Shown in pieces: positions 4,027 through 26,623 of a stretch of 33,548 nt of DNA. This DNA comes from Lentisphaeria bacterium (GTDB lineage: Bacteria; Verrucomicrobiota; Lentisphaeria; JABSQK01; CAJWLW01). The notes beneath the pieces are model-generated. The model did not search any database and had not been told where the DNA came from. It was given only the letters and a program-made list of their open reading frames with translations. Location of the stretch: contig JASLZG010000009.1 in the NCBI GenBank assembly GCA_030754995.1, forward strand, positions 1 to 33,548, given 5' to 3'. Position 1 is the stretch's first letter, and each line of letters opens with the position of its first letter. Position numbers and translations under genes: made by a program.

Positions 4027-7000
4027 TCACCGCACTTCCAGCATGAAACTCTCCGAATGGCTGTTGAACTCCGGCGCGTACATGCACTGGATGTTGGCGA
4101 TGCCGCTCTGATACCTGCCCCGGTGCGCCACCCGCGTCGAATACTCGAAGACATACGTGCCCTTCGGCAGATAGTCGATAAAGAAGTGACTCGCCGTGTC
4201 GCGGGTGCTCTGGTAATACGCCAGCCCGTCCTGGTACCTGTACTTCGACAACACGTTCACCGGTTCCGTACCGGCCCCGCGCTGGTCCTTCAAGTGCACG
4301 TACTCCATGTCGCGGTCGACGCGCAGCACCAACCGCACCACCAGCTCGTCACCGACGCCGATGACCCCCTCTACCTTGTTCAGCACCGGCCCCTTCCCGG
4401 TGTTCTCCTTGATGTACAGCGCCTTCTCCAGCGTCAGCGGCGTCGCCGTGTGCGGCGTGATCTTGCGCATGTCCTCCATGTACTGCCAGTGGATGCTGCC
4501 CCAGCTCACACCCTCGTCGATCTTGGTCAGCGTGACTTCGCCCATTGCCGGCTTGACCTCAGCCCCGCCAAAACGCTCCTCGTAGAAGCCGGTGCCGGCT
4601 TCGACGTTTTTCGGCTCGATCGCGACGCCGGCCAATGCCACCGCCACCAGCTCGTCCGAGGCCAGCAGGTCGGTGCCGCGCAGCAGCATGGCGTACACCG
4701 CATCGGCGGTGGCGCGTGTCGTCTTCCAGTCGCGCGTTTGTTTCTGCTTGAGCAGCCAGACCTTGCAGTCCTCGACCGCCTTGTCGTCTTTGGCGACTTC
4801 GTCGAAGGCCTCGATCATCATCGCCTGGGTCTCGATCGGCGCCCGGTACCACCACCAGGAATGCTCGGTGTCGCGCCAGTACATGCCCATCTCCTCCTCG
4901 TTCACAGAATGCTCGTGGATCGATCGCATGATCTTCGCCGGGGTCCCTTTGCCCGCCCCGAACCGCTGCAGGCCAACCGCCAGGTGTCCTTGCGACAGGC
5001 GCGACACGGTCAGCCACTGTTTGCGTGCCTGCCCGAGAAAGTAGTCAACGGCCTCCTTCGCATTCGCCGCAATGACCTGGTCCTCGAGAAAGAAGCTGCG
5101 CCCGTAGATGTACAAGGCGATCGCCGGGCCCAGATTGTTGTTGTCAAGACGTTTGTCCCGCTTCAACTGCTGATATCTCTGGTTGATCGAGCCATCCAGA
5201 AAGTTGAGTGCCTTCAGCGCCGGCTTGACGTCGATGCGCTTGACGCCGAGATGGCGCAGCCGACCGTAGCCCGTAGTGATGTACAACGTGATGTAATGAT
5301 TCGACGGGCCGCCGGGGAACCAGCCCCACGAACCGTCGCCGCGCTGCATTTCCTCGAGCCGGCGCTGCTGCCCGCGGCGTTCGCGGTTGAGCCGATTCCT
5401 GTCGAACAGTATGCCGAGGTTGCGCCGCGCCTCGCTCTCGCTCCCGGCTTGGCGGACCCATGGGGTTTCCTCGAGCATCACGGCCTTGAGCTCGGCGTTT
5501 TTCTCCAGCGGGCTGTCGAGCGCCTCGGTCCCTTTCCACTGGTCGAAAATCCGCCGGATCTTCGGGTCGGAACTGGCGATGTGCGAAGCCAGGGCATTGG
5601 CGTACAAACGGTTGAACACCTGCTCGGCGCAGCCGTGCGGGTACTCCATCAGGTAGGGCAGAGCCATCACTGCGTACCACGCCGGCTGTGACACCATCTG
5701 CACCGTCAGGCTCTCGTGCCGGATCGTGTCGGAACCGCCGGAGGCCAGGAGTTTTTCGAACTTGAACGTCTTCTTGCCGGCGTCGCGGACCGGCAGCGGC
5801 AGCGATTCGGTGACCATGATGCGACGCGGCAGTACCGGCAGGTAGCCTTCCTCGCCGTCCGAAAGCTTGTTGGTCGCGGCCACGGCGGTGTAGCTGAGGA
5901 ACCCCTGGCCATCGGGCACCGCGAGCGCCCAGGAATACGTCCGCGACTCCTTGGCGGGAATGTCGAACCCCTTGTCGGTCCGCTCATTTCCCAGCGCTTG
6001 ATCGGCGGACTGCGTAGTTCTTGCGTCGGCCAGGGACAGGCGGACGGTGCCCTGCTGGCGGGTCGGTGACTGGTTGATCACCTTGACCGTGAACTCGAGC
6101 CTGTCACCCTCGCGCAGGAAGCGCGGCGGATTCGGCTGCACCATCAGGTCCTTGGCGGTGACCACGCTGTCCTGCAGGAAACCGCTGCGCAGCCCGGCAT
6201 CGTGCGCCAACGCCATGAACTTCCACTTGGTCAGAGCCTCCGGCATCTCGAACTCCAGCTTGACGCGACCCTCGCCGTCACTGATCAGGTGGGGGAAGAA
6301 GAAAGCGGTTTCCTGCAGGTTCCTGCGGGCCGTTACTTTGCCCAGGTCCGGTCCCTTCGGCGCGCCGCCGGCGGCGGCGGTCGGCGGCGCCGCCGGGTCC
6401 AGGGCAACAGCTCCGTCCTTTCGAGCTGCCTTCCCCTGGGCGAGCACGGTGCCGTCAGCCATTTCCATCCCATCGGCATCCGCCGCCATCTCCATCGACG
6501 CCATCGGTGCCGGGGCACTGCTTAAGCTGCGATATTCGACGACCCCGCCCCGGCGGCCGCCATAGCTGTGATAGAAGTTCCTGGTGACATCCGGGTGAAA
6601 GCCGCGATATCTGAGGTTGCCGTTTTTCCGGTGGCTCGGCCAGCGGCCCTGCAGACGATGCCAGGAAACAAGAAGGTTCTGAAACTGCGACTGCAGGCGT
6701 GACCGGTCATGCCGGAATACGCCGATGCTTTGCGCCCAATGATGCGGCAGATAGGCATCGAGCGATTCGTCGTAGAGCCCGGCGACCATCTCGGCCACCA
6801 CCTTTTCGGCGTCCGTCCCGGTGATTATCGCAGTCCAGGTTTCCTTTTCGGCCGGCCCGAGCTTCGAAGTGAAATGCTCCCACTTCACCTGGAGTTTCTT
6901 GTTGCTCCACGGCACCGTGACCGGGCGCACTGTTATGTAGCCCCGATTCTCCCGCACCATCGTAACGCGCACCGTGAAGCCACCGCGCATCTCCTCGGTC

Positions 7001-10000
7001 ACTGCCAGTTCGATGATCTCCTGGGTGAGTTGCGGGTCGGTCCAGAAACTCCGCAGAATCTTCTTGCGATGCTCGATCTCGATGTATGCCCGGGCCCGAT
7101 CGTAGCCGCTGCCCCACAGCGCCGTGAGGCTGTCACCCGGCTCAACCTGCCAAGTCGGTGCCGTGAGCAGGAATGGAATCTTCAGGTTGCACTTGGGCGC
7201 CTGCGGATCGAGCACCTGCAACGGCTGCAGAGCAGTGACCGGCTTGCCGAAACGATCAGTCGACTCCAGTTTGGCACGGTACAGCCCGGGCTCGAGCGCC
7301 ACCGAAAGCTCCGCCCCGCCCTCGGCATCCGTCGTGAACGGCCGTTCGGCGGCAACCTCGCCGACTGGCCAGGTGTTGGGATCGGCAAGGTCCGGCTCTG
7401 CCGCCTGCCCGGCCGGCGACGGCATGCGGCGATGCCGCTGCCAGCCTTGGGGCCGGGGACGCTGGACGGTTGCCGGCGCCTGCAGCCGGAAAATCCTGAC
7501 GGTACCCTCAGCCCTCTGGCCGACGCCATCAAGCGTGCGCGTACCGATCGTCAGCACCACGGGCTTGTCCTTCTCCTGCCACTGGCCGGTGCTGAGTGTC
7601 GCCTGCAGAGTGGTGTAGCCGACGTTGACGGTGCGGCTGGCGGAGCGTGTTTCGCCGGCGGTGTCGGTGACATCGGCGTCGACCGAGAAAGTGAAGGTCG
7701 GTTCGTCGGCCGCCGGCACCGTCCGGTCCGGCGTGGCATTGAAGGTGACCTTGAACGAGCCGTCGGTCTCGGTCCGCACGATCCCGTGGAGGATCTCCTG
7801 GCCGCCGGACTGCGGCGGCATCCACCAGCGATACCAGCCCCACCACGGCGGATACCGAACCTCACGCACGACGCGGTACTGCACCTTGGCGCCATTGACC
7901 GCGGCCCCGGTGTAGCTGATGGCATGTCCCGTGATGGTGACGCCGGCATCCAGCTTCGGGGCGGTTTCCGGCGGCTCGAGGGTGACCTCGAACTTCGGCC
8001 GCTTGTACTCCTCGACCGTGACGTTGGTAATGCCGTTGGGCTGACCCTCGACGGCGATCGACATGCGGCCCATCAGCCGATCGCGCGGCGCCGTGAAGCT
8101 GCCGGAAAACGAACCGTAATCGTTGGTGCGAAAGTCGCGGCGCTCAATTTCCTTGTGATTGACGTCGCGGAAAGTGACCATGAGCTTGCGGTTGTTGATG
8201 GTGCGGTACGCGTCTTTCCCTTGGTCCGAATATATGCAGATGCCCTTGAAACGGATCGTCTGTCCCGGGCGGTAGAGCGAGCGATCGGTGAAAAACATGG
8301 TGTGTTCCTGCGGCCGGACCGTCATCTCATAGGCGCGTGCCGAAAGGTTGTTGGTCGAAACACGATCGCCCTGGTGTTTCGCCACAATGACATGCGGCTG
8401 CGGGTTGATGGCCGCTTTGAAATAGCCGTTTTTGTCGGTGCGCACATCGCCCCCCGTCCGCTGCCAATTCCGGCGAACCCGGTGCCAGAACTGGACCTGT
8501 ACACCCTCGATCGGCTCGCCGCTGCGCGCCGCCAGCACGAAACCGCCGACCCGGTTCGATCCCTGTCGCGTTCGCGTGACGATCGCCAGGTCACTGACCC
8601 AGAAGCTGCGATAGTTCACGAAATTCCTCTCCTTCTGAAAATTCGGGGTGCAACTGGAGATGACGAAATAATGACCCTTCGCCAGGTCCCCGGGCACCTC
8701 GACCTGATGTTGCCGCAACTGATAATCGTCCGTCGGCGGCAGATCCACAGACCAGGATTTAACCGGCGGCATGCCGATCAGTTCCTGCTGTTGCCGGCGC
8801 GTCGCCAACTGATCGAGCGACCAGCTCCGTGAACTGAGCAGCTTGTTCCAGTCGTACGGCACGACGCGAAACCAGATCTTGTCGATGTTCTTGTAGCTGA
8901 CACTGACTTTCGGCCATGGCTCGTTCCACACCTGCTCGACCATCAGGTCGACCTGCTTCGCTTCGATGGTTTGGACCAGGTTGTGGCAGGAATTGCCGCC
9001 CGGGGTCTCCGGGTGTGCCCTGGCGCCGCGCGTCGCCAGCCGGTGGGCACCGGCGAAATCGCTGTCGTTCTGCAGGATCATCGCCCAGTGATGCAGCGCC
9101 CGGGCCGAGATGCGGTGGTCGGCCCACTGATCGACGAAGCGCTCGAGCGCGGCGATGTAGCGCTCTTTTTTGTCGGCGCCGTAGGCCTGGTTGTAGCCGT
9201 AGACCAGGCGGCCGAGGTCGGCATCGATGCGGGCGTCCGGGTTGGCGTCGCTCTTGTGGAAGCGCAGCACCTCCTGGTAGACCTGCAATGCCCTGACCTT
9301 GGTCGAGGTGTCGTCGGTGGTCTCGATCTGCCAGGCGAGGAAGTCGTCGAGCTTGTCGAAGACCGGGGTGTCGGCGGCGAGGTCGAAGGCGTCCTGGGCG
9401 CGGTTTCCCGCCTGCTCGCCGGCACTGTAAAAACCCAGGGCCTCAAAGGCCAGGAAATCGTAGAGGGTCGGGCGGAAGCTGTCCGGTGCATTGCCGGCGG
9501 TGAGCAGTTCCGTATAATCGGCGATCGGCATCTTCTGCAGGGTTTCGGCGGCCGCCAGGGCGGTTGAGAAATGCTTGTCGATCTCGGCCAGGATCGTTGC
9601 CAGGTCCCAGCTCATGATGTCGTTGCCGGCGGCTTCGCCGGTCTGCGTGCGCTGCATGAAGCGCCAGCGGTTCTGCTGGAAAAAGTGCCAGTACCAGTGG
9701 GCCAGAATAGTCTGGAGAATCGGCTTGACCTCGTCCGGCGCGTCTTCGATTTCGGCTTGGAGGTTGGCGATCTTCTCTTCCGCCTTGCCGCCCTGGATCT
9801 CGGTGTGGTGGCGGATCTTCTTGGTTATCGCCTTGACCGCTTCGGCATAGGCTTTGTCGGCCAGGGCACCTTCGACGATCGGTTCGAGCAGTTCCATGGC
9901 GGTTTTTGGCAGGCCGTTGGCTTCGGCTTCGGCGACGTCCTTCCAGGCCGCCGTGCGGTCGGCGGCAAAGGCGCAGTGGACGAGCAGGAACAGGGGTATG

Positions 10001-10020
10001 AAATAACGAATCATTGACAC
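4027..10020 (-). CDS. Alpha-2-macroglobulin family protein (large bacterial A2M, MG domains plus thioester)
   Basis: 1997-aa ORF with signal peptide (MSMIRYFIPLFLLVHCAFA); 'DRSLYRPGQTIRFKGI', 'NLQETAFFFPHLISDGEGRVKLEFEMPEALTKWKFMALAHD' and thioester-type motif 'YPHGCAEQVFNRLYANALA'. Confidence 0.95.
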   Translation of the reverse strand: MSMIRYFIPLFLLVHCAFAADRTAAWKDVAEAEANGLPKTAMELLEPIVEGALADKAYAEAVKAITKKIRHHTEIQGGKAEEKIANLQAEIEDAPDEVKPILQTILAHWYWHFFQQNRWRFMQRTQTGEAAGNDIMSWDLATILAEIDKHFSTALAAAETLQKMPIADYTELLTAGNAPDSFRPTLYDFLAFEALGFYSAGEQAGNRAQDAFDLAADTPVFDKLDDFLAWQIETTDDTSTKVRALQVYQEVLRFHKSDANPDARIDADLGRLVYGYNQAYGADKKERYIAALERFVDQWADHRISARALHHWAMILQNDSDFAGAHRLATRGARAHPETPGGNSCHNLVQTIEAKQVDLMVEQVWNEPWPKVSVSYKNIDKIWFRVVPYDWNKLLSSRSWSLDQLATRRQQQELIGMPPVKSWSVDLPPTDDYQLRQHQVEVPGDLAKGHYFVISSCTPNFQKERNFVNYRSFWVSDLAIVTRTRQGSNRVGGFVLAARSGEPIEGVQVQFWHRVRRNWQRTGGDVRTDKNGYFKAAINPQPHVIVAKHQGDRVSTNNLSARAYEMTVRPQEHTMFFTDRSLYRPGQTIRFKGICIYSDQGKDAYRTINNRKLMVTFRDVNHKEIERRDFRTNDYGSFSGSFTAPRDRLMGRMSIAVEGQPNGITNVTVEEYKRPKFEVTLEPPETAPKLDAGVTITGHAISYTGAAVNGAKVQYRVVREVRYPPWWGWYRWWMPPQSGGQEILHGIVRTETDGSFKVTFNATPDRTVPAADEPTFTFSVDADVTDTAGETRSASRTVNVGYTTLQATLSTGQWQEKDKPVVLTIGTRTLDGVGQRAEGTVRIFRLQAPATVQRPRPQGWQRHRRMPSPAGQAAEPDLADPNTWPVGEVAAERPFTTDAEGGAELSVALEPGLYRAKLESTDRFGKPVTALQPLQVLDPQAPKCNLKIPFLLTAPTWQVEPGDSLTALWGSGYDRARAYIEIEHRKKILRSFWTDPQLTQEIIELAVTEEMRGGFTVRVTMVRENRGYITVRPVTVPWSNKKLQVKWEHFTSKLGPAEKETWTAIITGTDAEKVVAEMVAGLYDESLDAYLPHHWAQSIGVFRHDRSRLQSQFQNLLVSWHRLQGRWPSHRKNGNLRYRGFHPDVTRNFYHSYGGRRGGVVEYRSLSSAPAPMASMEMAADADGMEMADGTVLAQGKAARKDGAVALDPAAPPTAAAGGAPKGPDLGKVTARRNLQETAFFFPHLISDGEGRVKLEFEMPEALTKWKFMALAHDAGLRSGFLQDSVVTAKDLMVQPNPPRFLREGDRLEFTVKVINQSPTRQQGTVRLSLADARTTQSADQALGNERTDKGFDIPAKESRTYSWALAVPDGQGFLSYTAVAATNKLSDGEEGYLPVLPRRIMVTESLPLPVRDAGKKTFKFEKLLASGGSDTIRHESLTVQMVSQPAWYAVMALPYLMEYPHGCAEQVFNRLYANALASHIASSDPKIRRIFDQWKGTEALDSPLEKNAELKAVMLEETPWVRQAGSESEARRNLGILFDRNRLNRERRGQQRRLEEMQRGDGSWGWFPGGPSNHYITLYITTGYGRLRHLGVKRIDVKPALKALNFLDGSINQRYQQLKRDKRLDNNNLGPAIALYIYGRSFFLEDQVIAANAKEAVDYFLGQARKQWLTVSRLSQGHLAVGLQRFGAGKGTPAKIMRSIHEHSVNEEEMGMYWRDTEHSWWWYRAPIETQAMMIEAFDEVAKDDKAVEDCKVWLLKQKQTRDWKTTRATADAVYAMLLRGTDLLASDELVAVALAGVAIEPKNVEAGTGFYEERFGGAEVKPAMGEVTLTKIDEGVSWGSIHWQYMEDMRKITPHTATPLTLEKALYIKENTGKGPVLNKVEGVIGVGDELVVRLVLRVDRDMEYVHLKDQRGAGTEPVNVLSKYRYQDGLAYYQSTRDTASHFFIDYLPKGTYVFEYSTRVAHRGRYQSGIANIQCMYAPEFNSHSESFMLEVR

Positions 10021-17214: not shown

Positions 17215-18714
17215 CTAATTCCTCGGCAGCGGCAGGATGCGGACGAAGGCTTCAACAATGACAGCGTTGCCGGTGACGTTGCCGTCGAAGATGGCGGTGT
17301 TGTAGCCGGCGGCTTGCTGCGGGGTGGTGGGAGACTGCAGTCGCATCTCGCCGGTGTTCGAGCGCATCTGCAGCTCCTCTGCAACGACGTCGTCGAGGCT
17401 TGTCTCCAGGTCGCGGCCGACATCGATGAAGCCGGCGTCCGGTGTCACGATGAGACGCACCGTCTCGATGCCGGGCGGTCCGCTGGCGGCAAATTCGAAC
17501 GCCATGTCGCCGGGCGGAACGACCGTCGGCACGTTGGCCTTGAGATGGTTGAGGCCGGGCGCGTAGCGGTTGGGACAGATCTGCAGAACGTTGCCGACGG
17601 CATCGACATAGCGCAGAATGAAGCTGCAGTCCTGCGTCGCCAGCAGCGTGAAGGAAATACGCTCACCGTAGAACGGCTGGTGGCCGTGGGCGTGAACGTA
17701 GGCAGCATCGCGCAAGCCGGCGTTGGAGTCGCTGTAAAAGTAAACGCCCCCCAGTCCGTGGTTGGGTGTGATGCTGACGCGGAAGCCGTTTTCCGGCACG
17801 ACGGTTTCAGCCGTCGCCGGCAGTTCATAGGCGGCGGCGACCAGTTTTGAGAAGGTCGCATTAAGTACGGACGACAGATTGACGCTGTTGAGGTCGGCCT
17901 GGCCCATATCGGAGAGGTAGCCGCCGGCATCGATGTCGGAGATTGCTTCGAGGGCGGCGTTGCGCCCGTCGATCCACTCAAAGGCCTGGGCGTAATGCGC
18001 GAAATTGAGCAGCTGATACTGATCGGCCAGCAGCCGGGTACGGACCATTTCGCGCCAGCGCTCGAAGTAGCGGTCGAGGGTCGGGAGCTGTTCATCCTGC
18101 AGCTTGTCGACCATGTCCGCCAGGAACTCTGTCTTGACGTCGGCATAGTGCTTGAACAGCTGCACCTTGCCCTCTTCATCAAGCACTTTGGAGAGGCGTT
18201 CGGTCTGTGCGACCAGGTCATCACGCATGCCGACAAGATCGCGCTCCATGAGCTGGTTGAGTTCCGTGAGCCGGTCCTGCTCGGCGCTTGTCGCTTCGCC
18301 GAGTCGCCGGTAAAGGTCCTGGGCTGCCTCCAGGTCGCTTACCAGCGTGCGCTCGACGATAATCCGCTGCTGCAGAATCGCGATCACCTCCGGAAAACCG
18401 TCGCGGCGGCCATCGGCGCCTTCGGAGACAATGCGCTCGAGCTGCGGGGTGATATCGAGGCGGGCGTCCTGCAGCCGGTCCATGGAGCGGCGAATGCGGC
18501 GCATGACCTTGGCGAAGCGTTCCGAAAGTTCGGCAAGCCTGCTGCCGGAAGATTTTGCGGTGGGCGTCCCGGCAGCGTCTGCTTTCGTCTGCGCCGGCAG
18601 CGGATCGGCAGGTGCCATCAGGATGATCATGACCGGCAAAAGAACAGGCCATGGCAGGCGCCGGCAAGAAAATGCCGCGCGAGTCGCCGGAGGTTTTAGT
18701 CTGCTCTGCACCAT
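17215..18714 (-). CDS. Exported protein with helical N-terminal region and DUF4384-like C-terminal domain
   Basis: Signal-like hydrophobic N-terminus; C-terminal 'ERISFTLLATQDCSFILRYVDAVGNVLQICPNRYAPGLNHLKANVPTVVPPGDMAFEFAASGPPGIETVRLIVTP' follows the DUF4384 pattern (ORF track start 18759; internal ATG 18714 preferred). Confidence 0.6.
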   Translation of the reverse strand: MVQSRLKPPATRAAFSCRRLPWPVLLPVMIILMAPADPLPAQTKADAAGTPTAKSSGSRLAELSERFAKVMRRIRRSMDRLQDARLDITPQLERIVSEGADGRRDGFPEVIAILQQRIIVERTLVSDLEAAQDLYRRLGEATSAEQDRLTELNQLMERDLVGMRDDLVAQTERLSKVLDEEGKVQLFKHYADVKTEFLADMVDKLQDEQLPTLDRYFERWREMVRTRLLADQYQLLNFAHYAQAFEWIDGRNAALEAISDIDAGGYLSDMGQADLNSVNLSSVLNATFSKLVAAAYELPATAETVVPENGFRVSITPNHGLGGVYFYSDSNAGLRDAAYVHAHGHQPFYGERISFTLLATQDCSFILRYVDAVGNVLQICPNRYAPGLNHLKANVPTVVPPGDMAFEFAASGPPGIETVRLIVTPDAGFIDVGRDLETSLDDVVAEELQMRSNTGEMRLQSPTTPQQAAGYNTAIFDGNVTGNAVIVEAFVRILPLPRN

Positions 18715-18728
18715 GCGGCCACAACGAG

Positions 18729-19793
18729 CTACTTCTTTTTTACCTTGCCAAGGCGCCACTTCGTCCCGCCCTGTGTCATTTTGGTATTGTTGCCGTCGAT
18801 AAGAAAATCGGGACCTTTATCCGAGAATTTTTTTTCGGGGTCGTTACCGATAAGGAATTCCGAGCCGCGTTTGGCCAGGGGCGCATCCGAATCGGTGCCG
18901 GGGCGGGATTCATCGGTCGGCTCGGAATTCGAGCTCAGCAGGAAGTCCGGCACATATCGCGAATTCGGCAGCTCACTGCTCGAGGTGCCGTAGTAGTTCG
19001 TGGCGGCGGCGGCGACCGGTTCCAAATGCGCCGGCGGCGCCTGTGGCAGCAGCGGGCGTCGCGACAGGCCGGACGGCGCCTGGGCATAGGCTTCCCGATC
19101 AAACTTACGCAGCAGGTCGGCGATCTCCTGTTCGGCCACCCTCCTCCACTTGGTTTCGGGAAAGAGTTCGAGCACTTCACGGATGCCGGTGATCGCGTTC
19201 TGGTAATCGACACGCGAAGGTTGCGCCAGGTGCTGAATCTTTCTCGACGCGACAATTGCCGTCTCGAACGCCTTCAATTCCTCCACCTCTTCCACCGGCA
19301 GCCAGCGACCGCGGTGTTGCACGAGCCCGAGCGCTTCCTGGCGCTGCTTGAACGGGATCCAGTGGTTCTCGTGGAGGACATAGCCGCGGGCCTTGTTGCG
19401 AATGTTCTCGAGCTCCGGCCGTTCCCAGTCCTCGATCTCGAGAAACCCGCGGGCACTATAGGCATGCCTGAACAGGACCTGTGCCTGCGGGACCTGCCCA
19501 CGGTCGTACTGTGCCTGGGCCTCCTGCAAACAGCCGATCACCTGCTGTCGAATTTCATCGCGCAGCGGGCGCGGCAGGCCCTGGGCATCGAGCTCGTGCC
19601 ACCGGTAAAGTTTGCCTCCCTGCTTGCTGCGGAGGTACAACCCCTCGGGTTTGCGGCTGAACTTACCTTCCACCAACCGCCCGTCATGCAGGCGGAATGC
19701 GGTCGTCTGCACGACAATGCCGGCACCGCCGGAAACGGCGAAAATACACAACGCCAGCAGGGCGAGGGCAGTGTGTTTTTCGTAGGTCAGCAT
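18729..19793 (-). CDS. Exported protein of unknown function with C-terminal [PS][DE]FL[LI] motif repeats
   Basis: 354-aa ORF with N-terminal signal (ALALLALCIFAVSGGAG); middle region 'HENHWIPFKQRQEALGLVQHRGRWLPVEEVEEL'; C-terminal VPDFLLSSN / GSEFLIGND / GPDFLIDGN repeats. Confidence 0.65.
   Translation of the reverse strand: MLTYEKHTALALLALCIFAVSGGAGIVVQTTAFRLHDGRLVEGKFSRKPEGLYLRSKQGGKLYRWHELDAQGLPRPLRDEIRQQVIGCLQEAQAQYDRGQVPQAQVLFRHAYSARGFLEIEDWERPELENIRNKARGYVLHENHWIPFKQRQEALGLVQHRGRWLPVEEVEELKAFETAIVASRKIQHLAQPSRVDYQNAITGIREVLELFPETKWRRVAEQEIADLLRKFDREAYAQAPSGLSRRPLLPQAPPAHLEPVAAAATNYYGTSSSELPNSRYVPDFLLSSNSEPTDESRPGTDSDAPLAKRGSEFLIGNDPEKKFSDKGPDFLIDGNNTKMTQGGTKWRLGKVKKK
18786..18953 (-). 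repeat. Three degenerate copies of a [PS][DE]FL[LI]xxN peptide motif in the C-terminus of the 18729-19793 protein
   Basis: Read in translation: VPDFLLSSN, GSEFLIGND, GPDFLIDGNN, spaced about 17-29 residues apart. Confidence 0.7.
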
Positions 19794-20305
19794 GGATTGC
19801 CGAATTGTGTGTCTGAACAGCAGAACAGCGGTGGAGCTTCGACCAGCGGCATGGATGGAAATATACGGTCAAGCGTTTCTTCTGTCAACGGTTGTAGCGG
19901 TCGCACCGTGTCTGCCGCCACCGTCGGTGTCCTTTTCTTGGACGCGCATGAAGAGCGAACATTCATTTGACGAGGATCGCCGTGCCGTGGCAGGCAGGCA
20001 TTGCGCCGCATACGGGGAGGGGTGTACCTGTTGAAATTCATGAATTCAGGATTGTGACAGGCAATCATAATCTCCATGGGCAGTCGCCGGCCGCTCCGCC
20101 AATGGACCGGTGCGCCGGTCGATTTGGTTGTCCTTGCGATGCAGTGTGATTTCCCGGCGCCGTCATTTGCCCGCCGCACCTGCGAATTGACGTTTTTTTG
20201 TGCCCGGTGAATAAAACTGATGTTCCGCCGTCAAAAAGCTCGACAACTCACTCGCAGCCGCTCCCAGCGGCCAGCTACGATCAACCAGTCACTCACGGGG
20301 AACCC

Positions 20306-21397
20306 ATGAAGATGCACCTCTCGCTCACCTTCGGGACGCTGCTGCTCGTTGCTGCCACGGTACAGTCGGCGCGCATCGAAGATCTGCAGGATCAACTTGA
20401 GTTGCTCACCGACACCTTTCGACAGACGGCCCGGGGCGACAAGCACCTCAACGATCTGCGCGAGCAGATCATGACCGCCGAGGAGGTCGGGGCGCGCAAG
20501 GAGGCGTTTGACGAATACAAGGGCAAGCTCGCCGACCTGCTGGAGGCCCAGGACCGCTTAATGCAGCAGGTCAACGGGGCGCTCGCCACCGCCAGCGGCC
20601 TCAGCTTCGACAAGTCGCCGGATCTCGAACACATTCTCGACAGCTTCGACAGTGACCTGCGCGACATCGAGGGGTCACTGAAACTTCTCGAGGCCAGTTC
20701 GCTGGCAATGCGCCGGAATCAGGGATTCTCCAAGACCGGCGAGATCCTGGCCAAGAACCTGGCGCAGATGCGCAAGGCCTTCGCCGTCCTTATTCGCGAA
20801 CGCCGCGCCCTGCTCGATGAAGACACCGGCAAGTTCGACAAGGGCCATCTCGAAAGCTTTCTGGAGGCCCTGAGGATTTCCGCGGCGACGCGCCAGCAGA
20901 CGCTGTTCTTCGAATTCACCATGACCGCCCAGGCGGCACGTATCACCGACTACTACGATCAGTTGCGCGACCTTTACGCGACCCTGCTGCAGGGCAAGTC
21001 CTTCGCCATCTACATGCGCGACCTCGGCATCAGCAACCTCGAATCCACCAACTATCTGGCCGAGCTCAATGACATTCTCTCCGACGAAACCTTCGTGCTG
21101 CCCAATCCGGTCAATGACCTGGAGATCGAGAAAGTGCTCCTCGAGGTAAAGGACCTGGAAGAATTTTACCCGTATGAGCGCCTCGGCCGCAACTTCTATT
21201 TCGATCCACAACTCGACCAGTGGTACACACGGATGGAAAAGCGCCGTATTTACTGTCCGGTCGACGACGAAGCCGGTTCCGGAAAGTTCACCCGGATGCA
21301 TGCCGACGGCTTCTTTTACAGCCACGCACCGTGGTACGACCAGCCCCGGCAATTGACGTTCACCGAGGACTGGGTCGCCGAGGTCCAGGGCAACTGA
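20306..21397 (+). CDS. Exported helical protein of unknown function
   Basis: ATG at 20306 gives a signal peptide (MKMHLSLTFGTLLLVAATVQSA) and a long Glu/Lys/Leu-rich helical sequence; first gene of a co-directional cluster. Confidence 0.7.
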   Translation: MKMHLSLTFGTLLLVAATVQSARIEDLQDQLELLTDTFRQTARGDKHLNDLREQIMTAEEVGARKEAFDEYKGKLADLLEAQDRLMQQVNGALATASGLSFDKSPDLEHILDSFDSDLRDIEGSLKLLEASSLAMRRNQGFSKTGEILAKNLAQMRKAFAVLIRERRALLDEDTGKFDKGHLESFLEALRISAATRQQTLFFEFTMTAQAARITDYYDQLRDLYATLLQGKSFAIYMRDLGISNLESTNYLAELNDILSDETFVLPNPVNDLEIEKVLLEVKDLEEFYPYERLGRNFYFDPQLDQWYTRMEKRRIYCPVDDEAGSGKFTRMHADGFFYSHAPWYDQPRQLTFTEDWVAEVQGN

Positions 21398-21451
21398 GGC
21401 CGCCCCTTCCACCTTAATTCCAAGCCACCGACACCCACAAGGAGACCGATC

Positions 21452-22648
21452 ATGCAACGAATTCACCACCCCGCCCACCTGCTGCTCTGTGCCATGCTGT
21501 TCACTGCTGTCGTGACCAGCGCCGATGAATCGGAACGTCGCGTCGACGAGCTCAAGCTCAAGCAGTTCCAGCGTTCCGTCAAGATCGTCGAGGTTCATTA
21601 TACCGAGCTCGACGCGGCCATGGACACCCAGTTCGACAAGCTGGTCACCGACGCCCTGAACGGTGGCATACAGGATGATCAGGCGTATGTCGAACCCGTG
21701 GCGGACCTCGCCGAACGCATCCTCGAGGAGTTCGATGACCAGCTCAACGACTCCATGGTCGCACGACTGCGAAATACCCTGGCGCGGCAGGACAGTGAAT
21801 TCGCCGGGCACGTCAATGCCGTCATTGTCGAACGCAACCGCCTGGCCGCCGATCTGATCGAACCGGTCCGCGCCAGCTACACCGAACCGAAAGACGACGA
21901 GATCCCGGCCGAATTGACCCTCAAACTCTTTCAGACCCGCGCCGATGCGCTCGTCGACGAACTCATCGCCAACGGCGAGCTGCTCAAGCAGATAAGCATG
22001 GATCGTGATCGTATGGAGGACTTTCTGGCGGAAACCTCGCGCAAGATCTGGGTGTATGTCGATAAAGGCAGGAGGCGTCACTATCTGCCCGGTTCGCGCA
22101 AGGCGAGCCTGCAGAAAATCATGCGGAACTACTTGAAGAAGGGCAAATATTTCGACGCTGAAGAACCCCTGCGCCTGGCCTGCGACAAGTTCGGCAAGCG
22201 AGACAAGGACTCATCCCTGCACCTGCTGTACTCGTTTGTACTGCTGATCAACAAGAGTAACCCGGCGGCTGTCGAGAAAGGCTATATCGAGCTCGAAAAA
22301 GCGTTCGACAAACTGCACACCGAACGGCTGGCCTACAATATCGTCCGCGTCGGCGCGCGCCTCAACCGCCTCGACGTGCCGCGGCTCATGAAGCTCATCG
22401 ACCACGCCAGTTTCCGCGACGACTCCGCCGGGCTCGACAATTTGTACAACCTGGCCATGCACCAGTTCGTCAAGCACAATCGCCTCGACCAGGCGGTGGC
22501 GCTGTACGACCGGCTGCTCAAGGAAAAACGAACCCAATCACTGGCGCCGATCTTTTCCTTCCTCGTTCTCATGCATACCGGCGAATACGAACGCATCCAG
22601 GGCGAAGTCCAGGCCGACAGCCTCGAAGCCCTGACCGCGGCAGATTGA
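21452..22648 (+). CDS. Exported helical/TPR-like protein of unknown function
   Basis: SD (AAGGAG) before ATG 21452; signal peptide 'HPAHLLLCAMLFTAVVTSA'; C-terminal half alpha-solenoid-like ('LDNLYNLAMHQFVKHNRLDQAVALYDRLLKEKRTQ'). Confidence 0.7.
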   Translation: MQRIHHPAHLLLCAMLFTAVVTSADESERRVDELKLKQFQRSVKIVEVHYTELDAAMDTQFDKLVTDALNGGIQDDQAYVEPVADLAERILEEFDDQLNDSMVARLRNTLARQDSEFAGHVNAVIVERNRLAADLIEPVRASYTEPKDDEIPAELTLKLFQTRADALVDELIANGELLKQISMDRDRMEDFLAETSRKIWVYVDKGRRRHYLPGSRKASLQKIMRNYLKKGKYFDAEEPLRLACDKFGKRDKDSSLHLLYSFVLLINKSNPAAVEKGYIELEKAFDKLHTERLAYNIVRVGARLNRLDVPRLMKLIDHASFRDDSAGLDNLYNLAMHQFVKHNRLDQAVALYDRLLKEKRTQSLAPIFSFLVLMHTGEYERIQGEVQADSLEALTAAD

Positions 22649-22740
22649 GGGATTCGAACTATGACCACGGCCTTCACTGCCACATGACGGCCGGATTTTG
22701 GCGGGGACCGGGCAACGACCGATCCCCCGACACCTGCGCT

Positions 22741-22773
22741 GGCCGAAGGCCGACTGGCCGCCGAATGGCGGCC
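22741..22773 (+). promoter_or_regulatory. Two consecutive GC-rich stem-loops between the exported-protein genes and the ExbB-like gene
   Basis: GGCC-GAA-GGCC (22741-22751) followed by GGCCGCC-GAAT-GGCGGCC (22756-22773), read directly; no downstream U-tract. Confidence 0.4.
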
Positions 22774-22807
22774 GTGACCAACGGCAGCGTCAAACCTGGG
22801 GCCTTGT

Positions 22808-23584
22808 ATGCTCGCATGGGCAACTATCAACGTCGGTGATACACTCGACCTGGTCTGGTCGAGCCTCGGCGTTTTCCGATATCTGTTCGCCGTCGCCCTG
22901 CTTGCCATCGCGGTCTTTCTATTCCGCGGCTGGCGCGAGCTTGGTCGCGCCGCCTGCCCCTTCGATCTTGCTTATCCTCTCGATAATGGGACGCGCAGCA
23001 ACCTCTGGCAGCTGGTACACCATGGCATGGCGTCGGCACAGGTGCGCGGCCTCTTTTTTGCCGGTGACGAAACGACCGGGAGCAACCTGTTCTACCAGTA
23101 TCTCGTGCGTTTCGGCAGCCGCGACTGCCAGGCGCCGTTGTCGCCGTCGCTGTTGCAAGGCACCGAGGAGTCATACCGCCTGCTGCAGATCCGCAACGTC
23201 TCGGTTTCCGCCCGGTTCCTGGCGGCGCTGCTGCCGGCGATCGGCCTGCTCGGCACCCTGATCGGCATGTTCAATGCCTTCTTCGGCACCGACTTCACCG
23301 AAGGCACCGAGCTCGCCACCACCATGCAGCAGCTCATGCAGAATTTCGCCCTGGCTTTGTTCACGACGATCGCTGCGGTGATCCTCAAGATCGGGGTCGA
23401 CCTGTTCAATCACTTCACCCTCGAGACGCATATTGACCGGACACGCGGTGATGTCGCCAAACTGCGGTCGGTACTGCAGGACCTGCTCAGCCAGTCCGAA
23501 CCTCGACCGGCAGGCGCCCCCGCCCCGGCCGAGGGCTGCAGCGGCAACGGTGGCTCACCTGGACTGATTGCCGGCAATGATTGA
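22808..23584 (+). CDS. MotA/TolQ/ExbB proton-channel family protein
   Basis: Three TM segments; 'VSARFLAALLPAIGLLGTLIGMFNAFFGTDFTEGTELATTMQQLMQNFALALFTTIAAVILKIGVDLFNHF' is a clear MotA/TolQ/ExbB core. Confidence 0.88.
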   Translation: MLAWATINVGDTLDLVWSSLGVFRYLFAVALLAIAVFLFRGWRELGRAACPFDLAYPLDNGTRSNLWQLVHHGMASAQVRGLFFAGDETTGSNLFYQYLVRFGSRDCQAPLSPSLLQGTEESYRLLQIRNVSVSARFLAALLPAIGLLGTLIGMFNAFFGTDFTEGTELATTMQQLMQNFALALFTTIAAVILKIGVDLFNHFTLETHIDRTRGDVAKLRSVLQDLLSQSEPRPAGAPAPAEGCSGNGGSPGLIAGND

Positions 23585-24083
23585 ACAACCACAAATCTAC
23601 GCCGACGACCTGCTCGACGGCTTGCAGGGTGAACCGGTCCGCGGCGCCTCGAGCACCGAGGACTTCTGGATGTTCTTCTCGTTCGCCATGATCCTGCTGG
23701 TCTTTGTGCTGATGAATTATGTCAGCTACCTCTACTCGATGGTCGTCAATCCGCCGGAGCAGATCGCCACCGTCGACATCAGCGCCGTCGCCGATGCCGA
23801 CGTCGCCGATATCCGTATCTACGTGCGCCACGACAGCGGCGACGTTTATTTCACCTTTGCCGACGACGAGCATGCCAGGCTCGATGCCGTCGCCCTGGCA
23901 GCCGGGCTGCGCCGGCGCCTCAGCCTGGTCGATAGTGAGAAAGATGTACGGGTGTTTGTGCACGCCCCCGGCGAAATCCTCTATCAGCATGTTTTCGACG
24001 CCAGCTTCTCCGCCTGGCAACTCGACGATGCGACCATGGCCCGGCGCCTCGACGTGCATCTGGTCTACGAAGAAACCCCGTGA
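23577..24083 (+). CDS. ExbD/TolR-like protein
   Basis: Small protein with one TM preceded by an acidic residue ('STEDFWMFFSFAMILLVFVLMNYV') and a periplasmic alpha/beta domain ending 'DVHLVYEE'; ATG 23577 overlaps the ExbB-like stop by 8 nt. Confidence 0.65.
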   Translation: MIEQPQIYADDLLDGLQGEPVRGASSTEDFWMFFSFAMILLVFVLMNYVSYLYSMVVNPPEQIATVDISAVADADVADIRIYVRHDSGDVYFTFADDEHARLDAVALAAGLRRRLSLVDSEKDVRVFVHAPGEILYQHVFDASFSAWQLDDATMARRLDVHLVYEETP

Positions 24084-24135
24084 CGCGAGGCTCTCCGAGG
24101 CAGCGCCTTCTTGAAATCCGAAATCGGAGTGAATC

Positions 24136-25152
24136 ATGAAACTGAAACGATCCATCATCACGGTAGCCACGGTCATCGTTCTGATCGTCGGCGCCATATT
24201 TGTTACCATCGGCCTGCAGCAACCGTCGTTGTCCGTGGAAGGGTTGCCGAACGGCATCGATGCCGGGGCACCCTTCATCGGCAAGCTTATCGTAGTCAAC
24301 CCCAGGCACTACGTCATCGACGTCAGCAGCAGCCGGGGCGATCTCGAAATCGACCCGGAGAGTTTTCAGATTCGCTGGCCATCGCCGCCGCCGGGCAGTT
24401 ACAACGTGGCCTTCACACTGCATCGCAAGCAGGGCGACCGCCGTACTGTCGTCGACGAGAAGATCTGGCCGGTCCTCGTCGCCGGCAACATCCCTGGCAA
24501 GAGGCCGCCGGAACCCGAAAACATTGTTGCGGACACCGCAGGTCCGCCGGCTACAGACACGATCGGGCCGGCACCGCCGCCGGCCGCGGTCGAACCGCCA
24601 CCGACTGCCGTCGAGCCTCGACCAGCACCGCCGGTCGAGCCGGCAACCGGTCCGGGATCGACTGCGGCAGTTGAACCAGTGCCGGTTCAGCCGATGACAC
24701 TGACGCGCACCGTCGGTAAACTGCCGGATGAAGTGAGCGTCAGCCTGCCCAACGGGCAACAGGTCTTCGGCCGCGGCCGCCCCGGCAACTGGACACCGCG
24801 CCAGGTGTATCTGCGCGGGCTGTTGAGCCAGGTGCGTTATGTCTACGATTTCCCGGATGACCCGGTTCAGGCCGATGCCGATGTCGGTGTCCTGCTGCAG
24901 CTCGGTGCGGGGCTTGCCGATACCGAGGGCCCGTTCACGATCGCGCTGAATGACCGCGGTCGGGCTGCCATGCAGCGCCGCAAAACCGTGAGTTTGCGCT
25001 TGCCGGCCGAGTTGTGGGGGGCTGTCCTGCGGACCACGAACGTCGTCGCAGTAGTTAATCACGGCCGCGTCCGCTGGCGTCTGGCCGCCTACGAGCCGCG
25101 GTCCGGTGCGTACGCGGTGGTCGTTGGGTCGGGCGATATCCAGAGACAGTGA
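24136..25152 (+). CDS. Single-TM periplasmic protein: Ig-like domain, Pro-rich linker, novel C-terminal domain
   Basis: N-terminal TM (IITVATVIVLIVGAIFVTIGL); 'LPNGIDAGAPFIGKLIV...FQIRWPSPPPGSYNVAFTLH' Ig-like; Pro-rich 'GPAPPPAAVEPPPTAVEPRPAPPVEP'. Confidence 0.7.
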   Translation: MKLKRSIITVATVIVLIVGAIFVTIGLQQPSLSVEGLPNGIDAGAPFIGKLIVVNPRHYVIDVSSSRGDLEIDPESFQIRWPSPPPGSYNVAFTLHRKQGDRRTVVDEKIWPVLVAGNIPGKRPPEPENIVADTAGPPATDTIGPAPPPAAVEPPPTAVEPRPAPPVEPATGPGSTAAVEPVPVQPMTLTRTVGKLPDEVSVSLPNGQQVFGRGRPGNWTPRQVYLRGLLSQVRYVYDFPDDPVQADADVGVLLQLGAGLADTEGPFTIALNDRGRAAMQRRKTVSLRLPAELWGAVLRTTNVVAVVNHGRVRWRLAAYEPRSGAYAVVVGSGDIQRQ

Positions 25153-25153
25153 C

Positions 25154-26623
25154 ATGCTGCGGTCGCAGACATTCCGTGGTGCTGCCGTCTGCCTCATCCT
25201 CGCGCTCCTGGTGGCGCTCGTCGCCCATCTCCTGCGGCATCCGCAGGCGGAGCTTGAGCTGCCGGCGAAGGCGCCCGAGCTGGTCCTGAACCTCCCCGGC
25301 CGTATCCAGGCGGGTGTGCCCTTTGCCGGTACCGCGAAAGTCACCGGCGGCCGGCTCCGGCGCCCGGCTTGCTCACGACCGGACATTCAGTTTCGCAGCG
25401 ACGGTGTGATCGCCTGGGCACAGCCGTTGGCGGGGATGTACGAGATTACTTTCACGGTCGCGGGCAGTGGTGAACCGATGACCGCAAACTGGCAGGTGAC
25501 AGTTTTCGAGCCGCCGCCGAAGAAGGAGCGCCCGAAAGTCGTGCGGCTCGCGGCGCTGCAGCGGCCGCCGCCGCCGGAAGAGCAAACCGAGCCGCACCGG
25601 CAACCGCCACCGCCGCGCCGGGAGCCGCCACCGCCCACCGAACCGGCGCCCCGGCCGCCGCCTGTTGCCGTTGAGCCGGCGCCACAGCCGGCGGCCCCCG
25701 TCGACGCGGCCAGGCGCGCCGCTTATGCCCGGCACCAGGCGGCGTTGGCCGCTGCCAAGGCCGCTCGCGAGGCGGCGGCGAAGAGGGCCGAAGAGGCTCA
25801 GGCCCGGGCTCTCGCCAAGGCTGAAGAGGCGCGCCTGAGAAAGGCAGCACTGGAAAAGGCGGCACAGACCGAGAAAAACGCCATGCGTCAGGCCGAGCTG
25901 AGGCGCCAGGCGGAGTTGCAGGCAGCGCGAGAAACGGAGCAACGCCGGCGCCTCGAGGCACTCCGGAAGGAGCGGGCCCGGCAGGTCGAGCTGGAACGGC
26001 AACGGCAGGCGCAGCACGCCGAAGAGGCCGGCGAACGACAACGCCGGCAAGCAGAAGCGCGGCGGCAGGCCGAGGCGGAACAGGCACAGCGTGATGCTGT
26101 GGACTCCGCCGTCCGGGAACCGCTAGATTTTTCCAGTTACGATTTCATCCTGCGCCAGGCGGCTTTTTCCGATTTCATGGACATTGCGGCGGCCAACGGC
26201 ATTCGGGTGTTTTTCCTGACGATCACCCAGGGCCGCCTCGACGCGGCCCGGGAACCGTACGCCGTCATCGGTGCCAATGGCGACGTGCCGGTCGTGGAGG
26301 TCAGCAGTTATGAAGCGATCAAGGCGTTGTTCGAAGGACGTTACAACCGCAAGTACGTGCGGGTGGCGCAAATCAGCGCGGACCGGGACTGGTCGTCGAT
26401 CAACCGTCGGCTGCGCGACGATCTTGGGACCAGTGCCGACTACAGCCTGATCGCGTTTTTTCCGAATTCATTCATCGTGGCGCTGGACCATGCGTCGCGG
26501 GCCCACTATCGGGAGCGGCGGACCGACCCGGCCTTGCCTTTCGAGAAAGGCGCCGGCGCGATTGTCTTCACGGTGCACAAGCCGGACCTTATCGAGATCC
26601 TGAAAATGGACAATGTGAAGTAG
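25154..26623 (+). CDS. TolA/TonB-like single-TM protein: Ig-like domain, Pro-rich linker, long Ala/Glu/Arg coiled coil, novel C-terminal domain
   Basis: ATG 25154 one nt after the previous stop; TM 'AAVCLILALLVALVAHLL'; Ig-like domain paralogous to the upstream protein; Pro-rich; 'AALAAAKAAREAAAKRAEEAQARALAKAEEARLRKAALEKAA...' coiled coil. Confidence 0.75.
   Translation: MLRSQTFRGAAVCLILALLVALVAHLLRHPQAELELPAKAPELVLNLPGRIQAGVPFAGTAKVTGGRLRRPACSRPDIQFRSDGVIAWAQPLAGMYEITFTVAGSGEPMTANWQVTVFEPPPKKERPKVVRLAALQRPPPPEEQTEPHRQPPPPRREPPPPTEPAPRPPPVAVEPAPQPAAPVDAARRAAYARHQAALAAAKAAREAAAKRAEEAQARALAKAEEARLRKAALEKAAQTEKNAMRQAELRRQAELQAARETEQRRRLEALRKERARQVELERQRQAQHAEEAGERQRRQAEARRQAEAEQAQRDAVDSAVREPLDFSSYDFILRQAAFSDFMDIAAANGIRVFFLTITQGRLDAAREPYAVIGANGDVPVVEVSSYEAIKALFEGRYNRKYVRVAQISADRDWSSINRRLRDDLGTSADYSLIAFFPNSFIVALDHASRAHYRERRTDPALPFEKGAGAIVFTVHKPDLIEILKMDNVK

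Follow-up and report, generated by a model that had tools for sequence, protein, structure and literature searches.

The window, by which we mean the whole stretch of DNA analysed, is a 33.5-kb contig (C527) of a 4.94-Mb source genome that is 84% complete and distributed over 527 contigs. It carries six genes that run in the same direction on the forward strand: g1 (20306-21397), g2 (21452-22648), g3 (22808-23584), g4 (23577-24083), g5 (24136-25152) and g6 (25154-26623). All six ORFs have a coding-type codon bias, with a GC content of 75-79% at the third codon position. An 8-nt overlap between g3 and g4 points to co-translation of the two, and g5 and g6 are separated by 1 nt; the other intergenic gaps measure 54 nt (g1-g2), 159 nt (g2-g3) and 52 nt (g4-g5). 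The ORF coordinates thus bear out the co-direction, order, overlap and 1-nt gap reported in a preliminary description of this DNA, and the hydrophobicity of the sequences makes visible the exported N-termini that it had ascribed to g1 and g2 as well as the single transmembrane (TM) segments of g4, g5 and g6. That description had passed over three points, namely the uncharged TM helix of g4, the paralogy of g5 and g6, and two divergent genes, m1 and m2, on the reverse strand (17215-19793). Family scans of the proteins against Pfam, NCBIfam, PADLOC and PDB sequences gave matches above cut-off only for g3 and for the DUF4384 domain of m1.

We found that g3 matches PF01618 with an E-value of 1.8e-7 (31.4 bits against a cut-off of 22.9), which bears out its proposed role as a channel subunit of the MotA/TolQ/ExbB family. 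Its nearest solved relative among PDB sequences is TolQ (1.5e-6), in a match that reaches upstream of TM2, and hydrophobic segments near residues 20-38, 131-155 and 177-200 correspond to three TMs. In an alignment with the ExbB proteins of the source genome and their relatives, g3 retains Thr150 of the GLLGT motif and Thr186/187 of TM3 in the family columns. The PDB sequence match pairs Thr150 with ExbB position 148, and Thr187 would, in our reading of the family alignment, correspond to ExbB Thr181; both Thr148 and Thr181 of ExbB have been described as essential (PMC12905483). Judged by its sequence, g3 can be placed firmly as a genuine MotA/TolQ/ExbB protein. TM3 of g3 also holds Lys194 and Asp198, in columns where 21/21 relatives covering them have small, hydrophobic or uncharged polar residues; one row at a contig end and one misread-frame row, which was not an ExbB, were left out of this count. 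A helical wheel puts residues 194 and 198 at -20 and +20 degrees relative to Thr187, on the same face as the threonine. The pair is situated toward the presumed cytoplasmic end of TM3 and could be no more than a structural salt bridge. The ZorAB proteins of Zorya defence were considered as relatives and rejected: instead of a full-length match, ZorA reached only 10-14 bits with g3, within the TM2-TM3 core that they have in common, and nothing matched g4.

The protein encoded by g4 resembles ExbD and TolR in size, position and topology only. Neither PF02472 in Pfam (at E 0.1) nor an ExbD model in NCBIfam (at E 0.05) matched it, and a local ExbD profile, built from 36 sequences matched in the collected loci, gave 5.2 bits with all filters off. 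For comparison, two ExbD proteins of the source genome and one of a related MAG scored 61-84 bits in Pfam. The TM helix of g4 spans residues 30-54; because residues 30-60 hold no D, E, K, R or H, the TM Asp of ExbD is missing in any alignment. Glu28 and Asp29, the acids closest to the helix, are located at what is presumed to be its cytoplasmic edge. Of the ExbD profile sequences, 35/36 show a simple TM-Asp pattern. AF2 predicted, with low confidence (mean pLDDT 56), a TM followed by a beta-beta-alpha-beta-beta order, and a Foldseek search with this low-confidence model returned no match. ExbD and TolR consist of a brief cytoplasmic N-terminus, a single TM and an alpha/beta domain of about 110 aa in the periplasm, an order with which this prediction would be compatible. 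An ExbD-type partner may thus still be a fit in size, in position, in its overlap with g3 and in the order of predicted elements. The earlier assignment stands for size, position and topology and falls short on the ExbD model match and the TM Asp. As a separate observation, a TonB-type cluster of Lentisphaerae (L109, JAAZKQ010000039.1) contains at 982-1536 a genuine PF02472 ExbD (2.3e-17) in which Asn replaces the TM Asp (LVAILNLFFILLIFFLI); its ExbD relatives in the loci L106-L108 retain Asp.

Downstream of g4, the products of g5 and g6 share a three-part layout of an N-terminal TM, a Pro-rich or helical linker and a further 150-170 residues. g5 has a TonB-like architecture, with a TM, an Ig-like domain, a Pro-rich linker and a C-terminal domain that has no assigned family; the architecture of g6 is TolA-like, with a TM, an Ig-like domain, a Pro-rich stretch, a predicted helix (184-320) and a putative C-terminal alpha/beta domain, likewise with no assigned family. 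The first 100 residues of the two proteins are related (62 aa at 34%, E 5e-4; 0/300 shuffles), and in this N-terminal comparison g5 scores 73, against 49 for the best of 721 ORFs outside the g5/g6 locus. The tails showed no detectable relation to each other (26/300 shuffles). By this similarity, g5 and g6 are N-terminal paralogues that have the TM and the Ig-like domain in common and differ in their tails. The g6 helix is predicted to run continuously over 137 residues (AF2, pLDDT mostly 81-96) and would measure about 20 nm if extended, by arithmetic from its length; the tail behind it falls below pLDDT 50, and outside the helices the AF2 models of both g4 and g6 are of low confidence (mean pLDDT 55-56). 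A match of g6 to the TolA model (23.6 bits) was below cut-off and confined to the low-complexity middle.

In TonB, the residues of the SHLS docking motif are spaced as S-x3-H-x6-L-x3-S. Neither g5 nor g6 shows this pattern within its first 60 residues. Searched by sequence, the two tails gave no Pfam match at E up to 10, TonB_C/TolA and vWA models included, and no convincing match among PDB sequences. The earlier proposal of an ExbB/ExbD-powered cluster with two transducers holds in that a channel of the ExbB family precedes single-TM proteins of TonB/TolA-type architecture; the ExbD identity, the TM Asp and SHLS were not found. Elsewhere, directly behind an ExbB-ExbD-ExbD set, lies a TM-anchored protein (L042:13387-15033) in which, judged by eye, an alpha-toroid (terpene-cyclase-like) domain seems to replace the TonB tail.

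The two remaining forward genes encode exported helical proteins. g1 (363 aa) is mainly helical and presumed periplasmic, with an N-terminal signal-like stretch, and reached no family above the Pfam cut-off. g2 (398 aa) has a weakly TPR/PPR-like C-terminal half, for which PPR/TPR models stayed below cut-off (best E 0.002-0.005). On the reverse strand, m1 (17215-18759; start GTG at 18759 or ATG at 18714) encodes a helical protein with a C-terminal DUF4384 (PF14326, 2.1e-14), and m2 (18729-19793), recognised as an ORF with codon bias, lies upstream of m1 in the divergent pair and encodes an apparently exported or anchored protein for which a Pfam search gave no match. By the look of their N-termini, m1 and m2 would be exported too. 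A sigma-70-like promoter in front of m2 (19860-19888, reverse strand) agrees with 11/12 consensus positions, a consensus match only and at chance level, as 2 such sites were found in the region vs 1.6 expected. The local alignment of m1 with g1 scored 74-75 vs 38-42 for shuffles, and 0/300 and 0/1000 shuffles reached the score; because long coiled-coil proteins score equally high, the homology is only tentative, and m1 is possibly a relative of g1 and a divergent member of the locus. Farther along the reverse strand, positions 4027-10020 of the window encode a bacterial alpha-2-macroglobulin of 1997 aa with bMG10, A2M and MG2 domains.

We also surveyed the other motors of the source genome, in which PF01618 has eight matches: g3, two adjacent ones on contig C93, and one each on C76, C92, C137, C267 and C339. 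The C93 locus (L030, G000:C93; 6687-9787) is a textbook arrangement of DUF3450, TtpC-like ExbB, ExbB and ExbD, and C76 carries an ExbB/ExbD pair with a weak TonB_C match nearby. Across the genome, PF03544 matches only on C526 and C76. On C339 (L035; 1259-2429), two ExbD-like single-TM proteins that have no Pfam matches follow an ExbB-like gene, one with the TM Asp (LGALVDII) and the other with Ser in its place (MPFLSIML). PF00593, the one receptor model used, detected no TonB-dependent receptor in this 84%-complete genome, of which ~16% may be missing; three control genomes were positive.

Outside the locus, no convincing relative of g1, m1, the g5 tail, the g6 tail, a combined g1+m1 profile or an Ig-like profile was found in 198 genomes of the same class, and a search for g4 across the phylum (388 genomes) likewise gave no convincing relative. 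Within the loci collected on account of an ExbB gene, g2 had a single weak match, to a TPR protein of generic kind. The relatives of g3 in the genomes searched were generic ExbB matches only. Genome-wide, viral and plasmid scans likewise gave no relatives of the tested proteins beyond candidates that we rejected. Among these, G001:C313 is a generic TPR-ExbB-ExbD-ExbD-ExbD locus, G087:C326 was a weak 13-bit match, and the TonB-type clusters L106-L109 share only a generic ExbB similarity; judged by eye, the match in G140:C210 sits in a metallo-beta-lactamase-like protein, and those to the Ig-like domain in G043 and G041 in glycosidase-like proteins. Because the genomes searched include five others of the same order and none of the same family, this rarity partly reflects sampling. 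The preliminary description had pointed to a neighbourhood search for conserved co-occurrence of the six families; the genomes searched yielded no homologous locus by which conservation of the neighbourhood could be shown.

The reading that we tentatively prefer, with a probability of about 0.4, is a divergent motor of the MotA/TolQ/ExbB type with two force-transmitting arms and a relocated ion site. In such a machine, g3 would form a pentameric inner-membrane channel with g4 as a helix pair inside its pore. The duplicated g5 and g6, whose tails have diverged, would attach to this motor through their TM helices, span the periplasm by means of the Pro-rich linker and the ~20-nm helix, and work on proteins of the envelope, among them g1 and g2 and perhaps also m1/m2. 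Because the TM of g4 has no acidic residue, the ion-binding site may have moved to Lys194/Asp198 in TM3 of g3, much as GldL, not GldM, carries the essential acid. The gene order, the family of g3, the missing TM acid of g4, the Lys/Asp pair and the paralogy of g5 and g6 can be read from the DNA; from these we infer how the parts would assemble, pass ions and dock, and what g1 and g2 would do. The more specific version, with the ion-binding carboxylate transferred to the Lys/Asp pair and the TonB-like and TolA-like paralogues both driven at once, is quite unlikely in this full form. The motor reading is favoured by the family and pore threonines of g3, its overlap with g4, the Lys/Asp pair on the threonine face, the paralogy of g5 and g6 and the long TolA-type helix. 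Against it stand the failure of any model to recognise g4 as ExbD, the missing Asp, SHLS and known C-terminal domains, the low confidence of the AF2 models and the possible salt bridge; nor did any homologous locus turn up to link the six genes to one another or to attest conservation of Lys194 and Asp198.

Alternatively, ion coupling might have been lost and the complex might merely anchor two long periplasm-spanning proteins, as a passive scaffold in the inner membrane. A g4 TM devoid of any charged residue and the absence of SHLS in g5 and g6 speak for this account, and the Asn in the genuine ExbD of the related Lentisphaerae locus L109 indicates that loss of the acid occurs in the lineage. 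However, g3 retains pore threonines that a dead scaffold need not keep and has gained a new Lys/Asp pair in TM3, and we consider such a scaffold unlikely. An Asp-bearing ExbD helix could instead be supplied in trans from another locus, with g4-g6 as the transducers or accessory subunits of a motor that is shared or heteromeric. The source genome would have the means for this mixed assembly, with seven other MotA/ExbB matches, several accompanied by genuine ExbD genes, and with the C339 locus, which pairs an Asp-bearing ExbD-like protein with a Ser-bearing one; yet the g3/g4 overlap points to a dedicated pair, the other loci are all off contig C527, and several of the other channels have ExbD partners of their own, which makes this arrangement distinctly improbable. 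We favour the two-armed motor with a relocated ion site over both the ion-dead scaffold and an ExbD supplied in trans.

The extent of the unit is a further question, and its answer is compatible with any of these readings. The 159-nt gap before g3, the lack of a conserved neighbourhood that would link g1 and g2 to the motor, and the lack of a family assignment for either protein would suit a functional unit of g3-g6 alone, with g1 and g2 as mere same-direction neighbours. We regard this as rather unlikely, since all six genes are co-directional with short gaps elsewhere and the DUF3450-ExbB-ExbB-ExbD locus of the same genome has an exported helical protein before its motor. This DUF3450 gene on C93 provides a precedent for the g1/g2-before-motor layout. 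The two loci are alike in their succession of an exported helical protein, a channel and an ExbD-type partner; on C93, however, Pfam identifies DUF3450 and ExbB and the local profile identifies ExbD, and no genes like g5 and g6 were seen in this TonB2-type locus.

Compared with ExbB-ExbD-TonB and TolQ-TolR-TolA, the cluster shares an ExbB/TolQ-family channel with both pore threonines, an ExbD-size single-TM partner next to it, and proteins with a TM, a linker (Pro-rich as in TonB, a long helix as in TolA) and a further C-terminal region. It differs in that g4 has neither the TM Asp nor an ExbD profile match, that g5 and g6 have neither SHLS nor a TonB_C/TolA tail, that an Ig-like domain and two tandem transducer candidates are added, and that no PF00593 receptor was detected. 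Transducers with non-TonB C-terminal domains have already been described in PVC bacteria (PMC12204202), and the cluster is therefore not a categorically new system. The vWA force transducers described there resemble g5 and g6 in their TM, Pro-rich or disordered linker, non-TonB tail, adjoining tolQ-like gene and TPR-type neighbour, and one class of them occurs in heterologous pairs; unlike the present proteins, which no vWA model matches, they end in von Willebrand A folds, and many of the TolA-like ones have SHLS and the in-pore type has Asp, neither of which is found here (PMC12204202). The suggestion of a separate envelope system keeps its force in that the cluster lies apart from the other motor loci of the genome and PF00593 yielded no receptor, and loses some of it to these published transducers.

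If the relocation is right, the closest parallel would be GldLM of gliding and type IX secretion, in which the essential acid, E49 of GldL, lies in the channel subunit and not in the pore helix (PMC8986121). GldL, however, has no obvious sequence homology to the MotA/ExbB family (PMC9389320), whereas g3 belongs to it, and the acid of g3 is located in TM3, is paired with a Lys and is known from one sequence. In the motors of ExbD, TolR and MotB, as reviewed in the literature, the conserved ion site is a single Asp in the pore helix. A natural ExbB-family complex that has no pore-helix Asp would either have lost its ion coupling or have its ion site in another place, and each outcome would help to test what the mechanism cannot do without. 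With a TonB-like and a TolA-like protein in tandem, the cluster also adds an architecture to the force transducers that are emerging in the PVC group.
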